From: Leptolyngbya sp. CCY15150
GTDB taxonomy: Bacteria; Cyanobacteriota; Cyanobacteriia; RECH01
Direction: 5' to 3'
Length of the DNA: 64,000 bases
Assembly (NCBI RefSeq): GCF_016888135.1
Contig: NZ_JACSWB010000292.1
Span: forward strand, 1 to 64,000
How positions within the stretch are numbered: position 1 is the first letter of the stretch; the number at the start of each line of letters is the position of its first letter. The notes beneath the pieces are model-generated. The model did no database searches. It saw only the letters and a list, made by a program, of their open reading frames with translations, and was not told where the DNA came from. Position numbers and translations under genes: made by a program. Of this stretch, positions 43,323-45,181 are shown piece by piece.

Positions 43323-44231
43323 CTATGGGATGGCCACCGTTTCGACTAAGCGTTGAACAATGGCCTTGGCATGACGACCACTGGTAGGGATCAGACGATG
43401 AGCTAGCACATAAGGAGCCAAAAGCTTGACATCATCAGGGGTAGCGTAGTCTCGTCCATCTAGGTAGGCGAGGGTTTGTGCTGTCCGATGGAGCGCCACG
43501 CTGCCACGGGGACTCACCCCAAGACGAATTTCTTCATCTTGGCGCGTGGCCCGGACGAGTTCCAAAATATACTTCTGCAACGGCAGCTCTACTCGCACTT
43601 GCTGACAGAGCGATCGCAACTCCTCAATCTCCTCCAGCGAGAAACAGGGGCGCAGGTCATCCAAGGTTTTACCCCCCTGAAGACGCTGCAGCATCTGGAG
43701 TTCTTCGTCTTCGTCAGGATACCCCAAGCTCAGAGAGACCATGAAGCGATCCATCTGGGCCTCGGGCAGCGGAAATGTGCCCTGATATTCCACGGGATTT
43801 TGAGTAGCGATCACAAAAAATGGGCGAAGCACCTGCCGCGATCGCCCATCAAGGGTCACCTGTTGTTCTTCCATCACCTCTAGCAAGGCCGACTGGGTGC
43901 GGGGCGTTGCTCGGTTAATTTCGTCTACCAACAAAACATTGGAAAACACGGGCCCTGGCAAAAATTCAAACTCTTCGCTGCGCCGGTTCCAAATGTTAAT
44001 CCCCGTCACATCAGACGGCAGTAGATCCGGCGTGCATTGAATGCGCTGAAATTTGCCGTCAATCGATCGGGCTAAGGATTTAGCCAGCAGCGTCTTGCCA
44101 ACCCCTGGGACATCTTCCAATAGGGCATGACCGCCAGAAAATAAGGCCACCAACACCAAACGGATGGCGGTTGTTTTACCGACGATCGTTTGCCCTAGGT
44201 TTTGCGTAAGTCGTTCGATACTATCTCGCAT
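43323..44231 (-). CDS. MoxR family AAA+ ATPase
   Basis: A 302-residue ATPase with Walker A in LEDVPGVGKTLLAKSLA (about 39-55), Walker B NVLLVDEINRATPRTQ with sensor 1 in FFVIATQNPVEYQGTFPLPE, and the C-terminal lid with SPRGSVALHRTAQTLA. MoxR proteins act as chaperones that insert cofactors or mature complexes, usually with a von Willebrand-factor A protein from the same operon. No such partner is adjacent: downstream on this strand is the pseudopilin gene, 168 bp away. The ATG starts MRDSIERLTQNLGQTIVGK, normal for the family. Confidence 0.93.
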   Translation of the reverse strand: MRDSIERLTQNLGQTIVGKTTAIRLVLVALFSGGHALLEDVPGVGKTLLAKSLARSIDGKFQRIQCTPDLLPSDVTGINIWNRRSEEFEFLPGPVFSNVLLVDEINRATPRTQSALLEVMEEQQVTLDGRSRQVLRPFFVIATQNPVEYQGTFPLPEAQMDRFMVSLSLGYPDEDEELQMLQRLQGGKTLDDLRPCFSLEEIEELRSLCQQVRVELPLQKYILELVRATRQDEEIRLGVSPRGSVALHRTAQTLAYLDGRDYATPDDVKLLAPYVLAHRLIPTSGRHAKAIVQRLVETVAIP

Positions 44232-44956
44232 AACTGCCTGCTAAGGAACCTCTTGTCCATTCTGTCTGTTCCAACAAAAGGTTGCCAATGATTTCACCCT
44301 AGTTGGGGGGCGATCGCTGGCGTTTCAGACATCAACCTTGCTTCACCTTATGGGACAGGAGAACAGGCGATCGCCCCCAGCCACCCCCTAGCCATCCGAG
44401 ACGTTGATGAATTTTTCTAGCTTCTGCTCCCCCAAAGCGTAATTTTTATTACTTTTCCCTAATCGTTACAATTCTTATTGATTACAGCATTTTTTCCCAA
44501 GGAAGTCCAAAGTTTTCCACAGGGTTGCCAAAAGTTTTCCACAAAGCTTATGCTGTTTTCCACAGGGTGTAACGGCATACCAAGCGATTGCGAATTTAGG
44601 CGGGGATCCAGGGCTGGCTGGAACATGCCTGAGAACCCCAGGGCTATTTGTAAAGCAATGTAACAAAAAAGTCCCTCAAACCCGCATTCCTTTGTAGAGC
44701 CTCCTGAGCGCCATCTCGATCCGTGGGCATCTGCAACATTGACAACCCCACCCCCTCCTAGCGCACAATGATGCCTACCTTGATGAATGCGCTCTGGCTT
44801 GATTGTCTGATTCTCCGGGCTACCTTGGGTAAGCTGCGGAGAGGGGATAGGCACTGAAGCTAGTTTGGCGCGGCTTTTAGCTGTCATCACGATCGCCGCT
44901 GAAAGCAGATCTAGTCTCGTCCAATCGTTCACCACCATGAAAGAGTAGAGGTTCTC
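44232..44956. other. Long intergenic region holding the DnaA-box array
   Basis: 725 bases between divergent genes (MoxR on minus, DUF2811 on plus). A minus-strand open frame across most of it has no protein-like residues and runs into the array. It contains an AT-rich tract and the DnaA boxes described separately, and no HIP1 between about 44380 and 45510. Confidence 0.6.
44438..44564 (+). other. Candidate replication origin: AT-rich tract and DnaA boxes
   Basis: Three exact copies of TTTTCCACA, the cyanobacterial DnaA-box form, lie on the same strand at 44513-44521, 44535-44543 and 44556-44564, spaced 22 and 21 bases, two helical turns. A degenerate copy TTTTCCCAA sits in phase 21 bases earlier (44492), and TTTTCCCTA lies at 44453. 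Next to them, 44438-44495 is strongly AT-rich, a possible unwinding element. The flanking genes point away from it. No dnaA or dnaN is within the window. An origin or another DnaA-titrating or regulatory site are both possible. Confidence 0.55.
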
Positions 44957-45181
44957 ATGAACGCAAGCGTCAGCATCTTGGCAGAAATCCCTGAAGATCT
45001 GCACGAGTCTCTTCAAGGCTATCTAGACAACCATCCAGAATGGGATCAAGATCGAGTGTTTTCCGCTGCTCTATCGCTGTTTTTGTTGCAGAATAGCCAG
45101 ACCACTACTCCCGACGCCACGCGCTCCTATCGGCGGGCTGCCCGAGTTTACCTCGATACCCTCTTCAAGCACGCCGTTTAG
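44957..45181 (+). CDS. DUF2811 domain protein
   Basis: A 74-residue protein matching the small cyanobacterial family DUF2811: MNASVSILAEIPEDLHESL, then YLDNHPEWDQDRVFSAALSLFLLQN and an end RVYLDTLF. Its middle resembles a ribbon-helix-helix or CopG-like fold with LxxYLDxHPxWDxDxVFxxALxLFL, suggesting DNA or protein contact; function is unassigned. The ATG follows AGAGGTTCTC, a fair ribosome site. It is the first gene to the right of the DnaA-box array. Confidence 0.85.
   Translation: MNASVSILAEIPEDLHESLQGYLDNHPEWDQDRVFSAALSLFLLQNSQTTTPDATRSYRRAARVYLDTLFKHAV

Follow-up and report, generated by a model that had tools for sequence, protein, structure and literature searches.

Several DnaA-box clusters outside oriC are found on the chromosome of Bacillus subtilis. 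In cyanobacteria, which are often polyploid, replication is controlled in relation to light; Synechocystis PCC 6803 replicates independently of DnaA, in contrast to DnaA-dependent strains. Escherichia coli possesses the non-origin DnaA-box clusters datA, DARS1 and DARS2, which have fixed box spacing, and it carries DnaA boxes upstream of genes at the dnaA and mioC promoters; those of the mioC promoter number five and differ in affinity (PMC4585315). The oriC boxes of cyanobacteria have the sequence TTTTCCACA, and in most cyanobacteria oriC is located next to dnaN (PMC4674748). Published ChIP of cyanobacterial DnaA was found in the form of qPCR at oriC (PMC6478999, PMC7198777), and free-living cyanobacteria without dnaA exist (PMC7198777). 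None of the papers searched described a dedicated cyanobacterial DnaA regulator.

The locus described here was found in a window of 64 kb, the whole stretch of DNA that was analysed, which belongs to a draft genome of 5.75 Mb in 304 contigs. It occupies a gap of 725 bases between diverging genes, a MoxR-type AAA ATPase gene (43323–44231, minus strand, start at 44231) and a DUF2811 gene (44957–45181, plus strand, 74 aa and a stop codon; PF10929, E = 1.1e-27). Three exact TTTTCCACA boxes could be re-found on the plus strand at 44513–44521, 44535–44543 and 44556–44564, spaced 22 and 21 bp apart as an earlier sequence-only reading had described, and an exact scan of the window revealed no further copy. 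The fourth box of that reading (44492–44500, plus strand) is indeed degenerate, with the sequence TTTTCCCAA and two mismatches. Beside the boxes lies an AT-rich tract of 58 bases (44438–44495) with 76% A+T compared with 46% window-wide. The assignment of TTTTCCACA as the DnaA box of cyanobacterial oriCs agrees with the published record (PMC4674748). A genome-wide count, which had been proposed as a check, revealed enrichment of the word, with 76 exact copies compared with 35 of the reversed control word. At the observed box density, a same-strand triple within 52 bp is expected by chance about 3e-6 times per genome.

The sequence-only reading had presented the array as a candidate oriC. The array does form a cluster of TTTTCCACA boxes (three exact boxes and degenerate slots), and its boxes share one orientation and adjoin an AT-rich tract, which speaks for an origin, be it the principal oriC or an additional one in occasional use. 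Against this, a larger cluster of six exact boxes in both orientations was found directly upstream of dnaN (C145:27677–28229), the kind of dnaA- or dnaN-linked cluster that the sequence-only reading had itself named as evidence against an origin here. The absence of dnaN near the array could also be confirmed, as dnaN sits with this cluster on contig C145 and the array is flanked by moxR and DUF2811. GC skew was evaluated in the 64-kb window of the draft genome and, by sampling, in a complete relative (G020). No sign change could be observed at the array, the skew being negative throughout the window on both sides. In G020, a DnaA-box cluster at about 1.7 kb adjoins dnaA, and the sampled skew was for the most part positive between this cluster and about 2.2 Mb and for the most part negative beyond, with switches near 0 and 2.3 Mb. 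The orthologous DUF2811 array of G020, at 3.75 Mb, lies within one arm, and no switch of the sampled skew was seen there. The AT element, moreover, is still 94% identical in a dnaA-less genome from which the boxes are gone, a further point against an origin. An origin at this position is thus hardly credible, and the fallback given by the sequence-only reading, a non-origin DnaA site, is supported. In cyanobacteria, an AT-rich tract beside a DnaA-box cluster does not by itself mark an origin. A plasmid search using the region produced, among the matches listed, only matches within the moxR part of the query.

A search for three boxes with short gaps was conducted in 59 relatives, and matches were obtained in 33 genomes, while the reversed control pattern produced zero triads in the 59 genomes. 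Outside oriC and oriC-like clusters, almost all triads occurred either 3' of guaA or 5' of DUF2811, and exact triads 5' of DUF2811 were present in 14 genomes of eight families. When one mismatch was allowed and only loci with at least 700 bp of upstream sequence were counted, at least two boxes on the gene strand within 900 bp upstream could be found at 106 of the 107 DUF2811 loci, which represent many cyanobacterial families. A box pair phased at 20–23 bp was present at 102 of the 107. The background per locus was 0.19 for inverted boxes upstream, and 0.22 and 0.14 for boxes downstream. The sole locus without boxes within 900 bp, that of Baaleninema simplex PCC 7105 (L177), has a four-box array farther upstream, displaced by an inserted transposase-like (TnpB-like) ORF (L177:1284–2396, minus strand) between the array and DUF2811. 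Boxes were also present upstream of DUF2811 in the very small genomes (1.7–2.3 Mb) of family f2. The MoxR-type ATPase gene is not conserved beside the array; elsewhere its place is taken by ispE-DUF3082 or by different genes. Several genomes (families f2, f12 and f15) carry two to five copies of DUF2811; L252 and L258 are second copies in their genomes and have no boxes.

The triad 3' of guaA is likewise exact and non-origin, has a spacing of 20–22 bp and consists of boxes that point back to guaA. In the present draft genome it lies at C278:89415–89513 (around 9915–10015 of L034), where six boxes occur in 100 bases downstream of guaA, and it was also found at L037, L043-L046, L048, L059, L099, L101, L102 and L104-L107. 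About half of the relatives tested had exact boxes at this site, and the others lacked them. This triad is a candidate datA-like site. An exact triad away from oriC, guaA and DUF2811 was seen in G007, G029 and G003 (L036, L040 and L058), and it is possibly a relocated element of the guaA type. In family f26 (L112, L113 and L114), dense oriC-like clusters had no dnaN within about 2.5 kb, and the gene context of oriC seems to differ in this family.

Comparison of 77 non-redundant arrays upstream of DUF2811 revealed a common geometry. Counted from the last box (position 0, 44556–44564 in the window), the slots are TTTTCCCCA at −64, TTCCACA at about −53, TTTCCACA at about −43, and TTTTCCACA at −21 and 0. 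The exact boxes at 44513 and 44535 occupy the −43 and −21 slots of the present array, and the degenerate box at 44492 occupies the −64 slot, which has the consensus TTTTCCCCA in most relatives. In most of the 77 arrays the boxes are spaced by multiples of about 10.5 bp and lie on one helix face, so that consensus boxes stand in helical phase, as is expected of an array of DnaA sites. An inverted box, exact or with one mismatch, is present at +44/+45 in many relatives; here the slot at about +44 is strongly degenerate (GGCGGGGATCC, 44599–44609, minus strand). Directly 5' of the array, relatives possess a conserved AT element with the consensus TTTGcAATTCTTATC, matched in the window by the core TTACAATTCTTAT of the AT-rich tract at 44466–44478. 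The AATTCTTAT element at these positions is conserved 5' of the array and survives the loss of dnaA; it could be an opposite-strand promoter element or a site for another protein.

Two further blocks follow downstream. At about +91, the sequence TTTTGTAAAGnTATGTAACAAAA represents the reverse complement of HLR1 (KTTACAWWnnKTTACAWW; PMC13421787), which is the motif of RpaB, a light/redox regulator. It was found with no more than two mismatches at 52 of the 77 loci compared with 1 of 77 shuffled sequences, and in the window it reads TTTGTAAAGCAATGTAAC (44647–44664, minus strand). The motif keeps a nearly fixed distance and falls outside the positions described for regulation by RpaB (PMC13421787). 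Its reading as an ordinary site of RpaB activation was rejected, since position and orientation break the published rule; the motif is hence termed only HLR1-like. At about +181, a block of CATTGACAACCCCACCCCC...CACAAT was found with no more than four mismatches at 53 of the 77 loci, compared with 0 of 77 shuffled sequences. This block may be read as the −35 and −10 elements of a predicted promoter, which in the window would extend over 44739–44769 on the plus strand, with TTGACA at 44739–44744, a 19-nt spacer and a −10-like CACAAT at 44764–44769. The predicted start site would fall near 44776, with the array about 210–265 bp ahead of it. The fixed relation of boxes to promoter that is expected of a DnaA-regulated promoter could be observed in most loci for the predicted promoter, with TTGACA at about +181 counted from the last box. 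The distance from the promoter to the ATG, in turn, varies from less than 100 to more than 400 bases across loci. The module thus has a rigid part, from array to promoter, and a leader of free length, an arrangement that indicates gene control.

In nature dnaA has been lost repeatedly, and these losses offer an evolutionary control for the role of the boxes. In a sample of 291 genomes with at least 97% completeness, in which dnaA was scored by the DnaA C-terminal domain, the domain was present in 280 genomes and absent from 11. A Pfam search revealed DUF2811 in 278 of the 280 dnaA-positive genomes compared with 2 of the 11 dnaA-less genomes; the Synechococcus elongatus genome, included as a control, carries both dnaA and DUF2811. 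The Fisher P value of this association, 8e-14, is uncorrected for kinship and overstates independence, as there are only a few dnaA-less genomes and some of them are related, five belonging to one family. A separate protein search used a consensus query rather than a real protein, and the Pfam search confirms its result independently. The two dnaA-positive genomes without DUF2811, G002 and G142 (460 contigs), are both drafts, and a contig of G002 (L067) ends within the very intergenic region considered here. The control gene DUF3082 was retained in 10 of the 11 dnaA-less genomes. Losses of dnaA occur in f35, f41 and g81 and in three genera that also have dnaA-positive members (g78, g128 and g83); they probably number at least four.

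Two dnaA-less genomes display what became of the locus. G285 has a DUF2811 pseudogene with stop codons and only remnants of the boxes. DUF2811 is intact in G141; compared with its dnaA-positive congener G267, identity was 34% in the array, 85% in the core promoter and 94% in the AT element, and no box with one mismatch or fewer could be found in the array region of G141. Conservation of the boxes thus appears to depend on dnaA, as they are erased in G141 and reduced to remnants in G285. The contrast between G141 and G267 is the strongest evidence for a reading of the boxes by DnaA and for a different use of the remaining promoter region. The AT element is not itself DnaA-dependent, because it is 94% identical between the dnaA-positive and dnaA-less sisters. 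A different state was seen at L304 and L305 (G070 and G201; family f31, genus g44), where dnaA is present, the array has decayed to TCCCCA-type boxes and the promoter region is kept; this lineage possibly has DnaA-independent replication.

The same losses bear on the idea that another protein binds the boxes, or that the transcript driven by the array is an unannotated small RNA and not DUF2811. Conservation and unusual length of the stretch that separates array and gene speak for this idea, as does the resemblance of the AT element to a possible opposite-strand promoter. The erasure of the boxes after dnaA loss nevertheless indicates DnaA, most dnaA-less genomes are without DUF2811 itself, and an Rfam scan of the intergenic region revealed no matching family. 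This explanation is very unlikely.

The main rival is a locus that titrates DnaA or switches its activity, of the datA/DARS or B. subtilis cluster type, in which the array would act in cis on DnaA itself and DUF2811 would adjoin it as part of the process. Such a site would suit the mixture of high- and low-affinity boxes, their constant helical phasing and their erasure with the loss of dnaA, as well as the second exact triad 3' of guaA in about half of the relatives tested; the cores of DARS1 and DARS2 have three boxes and datA has five (PMC4585315). The array, however, tracks the gene and not the map position. From the dnaN- or dnaA-linked cluster it is separated by about 0.40, 0.53 and 0.69 of half a chromosome in the three complete genomes G020, G007 and G006, so that the conserved oriC distance known for datA and DARS in E. 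coli (PMC4585315) was not found in these genomes. The constant spacing to a conserved core promoter also suits gene regulation. A titration-type site is accordingly considered unlikely, with a real but minor share of the probability.

The DUF2811 protein was assigned with a Pfam score of 96.5 bits against a curated cut-off of 26.6. A PDB sequence search produced no match with E < 0.001, and the predicted structure is of low confidence (mean pLDDT 67). The sequence pattern hinted at a ribbon-helix-helix protein, a candidate fold that gained no support from Pfam, PDB sequence, AlphaFold or Foldseek. In Pfam, no ribbon-helix-helix family appeared up to E = 10 and no other family was convincing. 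No mention of DUF2811 was found in the open-access papers searched.

The explanation favoured here, and considered reasonably probable, is that the array is a conserved non-origin DnaA-binding site that makes up the distal portion of the DUF2811 promoter region and places under DnaA-dependent control a protein acting in DnaA-dependent replication. DnaA would bind the same-face, same-orientation boxes (about 10.5, 21 and 22 bp apart) cooperatively, and the bound DnaA would tune transcription, upward or downward, at the TTGACA promoter about 175 bp downstream. RpaB-type light/redox input probably joins DnaA in this control. Two positions speak against this explanation: the array is farther from the predicted start than the boxes at mioC (PMC4585315), and the HLR1-like motif falls outside the published RpaB range. 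DUF2811 would in turn serve DnaA-dependent replication, most likely as an initiation regulator or accessory factor, and the outcome would be a loop between DnaA and DUF2811. A bolder proposal, which is tentative and falls somewhat short of being probable, is that DUF2811 is the missing cyanobacterial DnaA regulator or partner. Array, RpaB-like site, promoter and DUF2811 would then form a conserved feedback module that ties initiation to the DnaA level and the photosynthetic state, and array and gene would both decay or disappear once replication becomes DnaA-independent. The array predicts a specific non-origin DnaA target and a specific candidate protein, DUF2811.

In comparison with known systems, the array shares the box sequence TTTTCCACA and an AT-rich neighbour with cyanobacterial oriC; unlike oriC, it has no dnaN, has one dominant orientation, is followed by a conserved promoter and coexists with a dnaN-linked cluster in one genome. 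It resembles E. coli datA, DARS1 and DARS2 as a non-origin DnaA-box cluster of fixed spacing. Those sites hold their relative oriC distance, and datA and DARS2 use IHF/Fis (PMC4585315), whereas the array follows a gene and its promoter at variable map positions. Like the E. coli dnaA and mioC promoters, it places DnaA boxes upstream of a gene; there, however, the boxes sit inside the promoter or near it (PMC4585315), while those of the array stand about 210–265 bp ahead of the predicted start, and an RpaB-like site intervenes. The clusters of B. subtilis are also located outside oriC, but the array differs from them in being tied to one gene across the class and in the loss of that gene together with dnaA.
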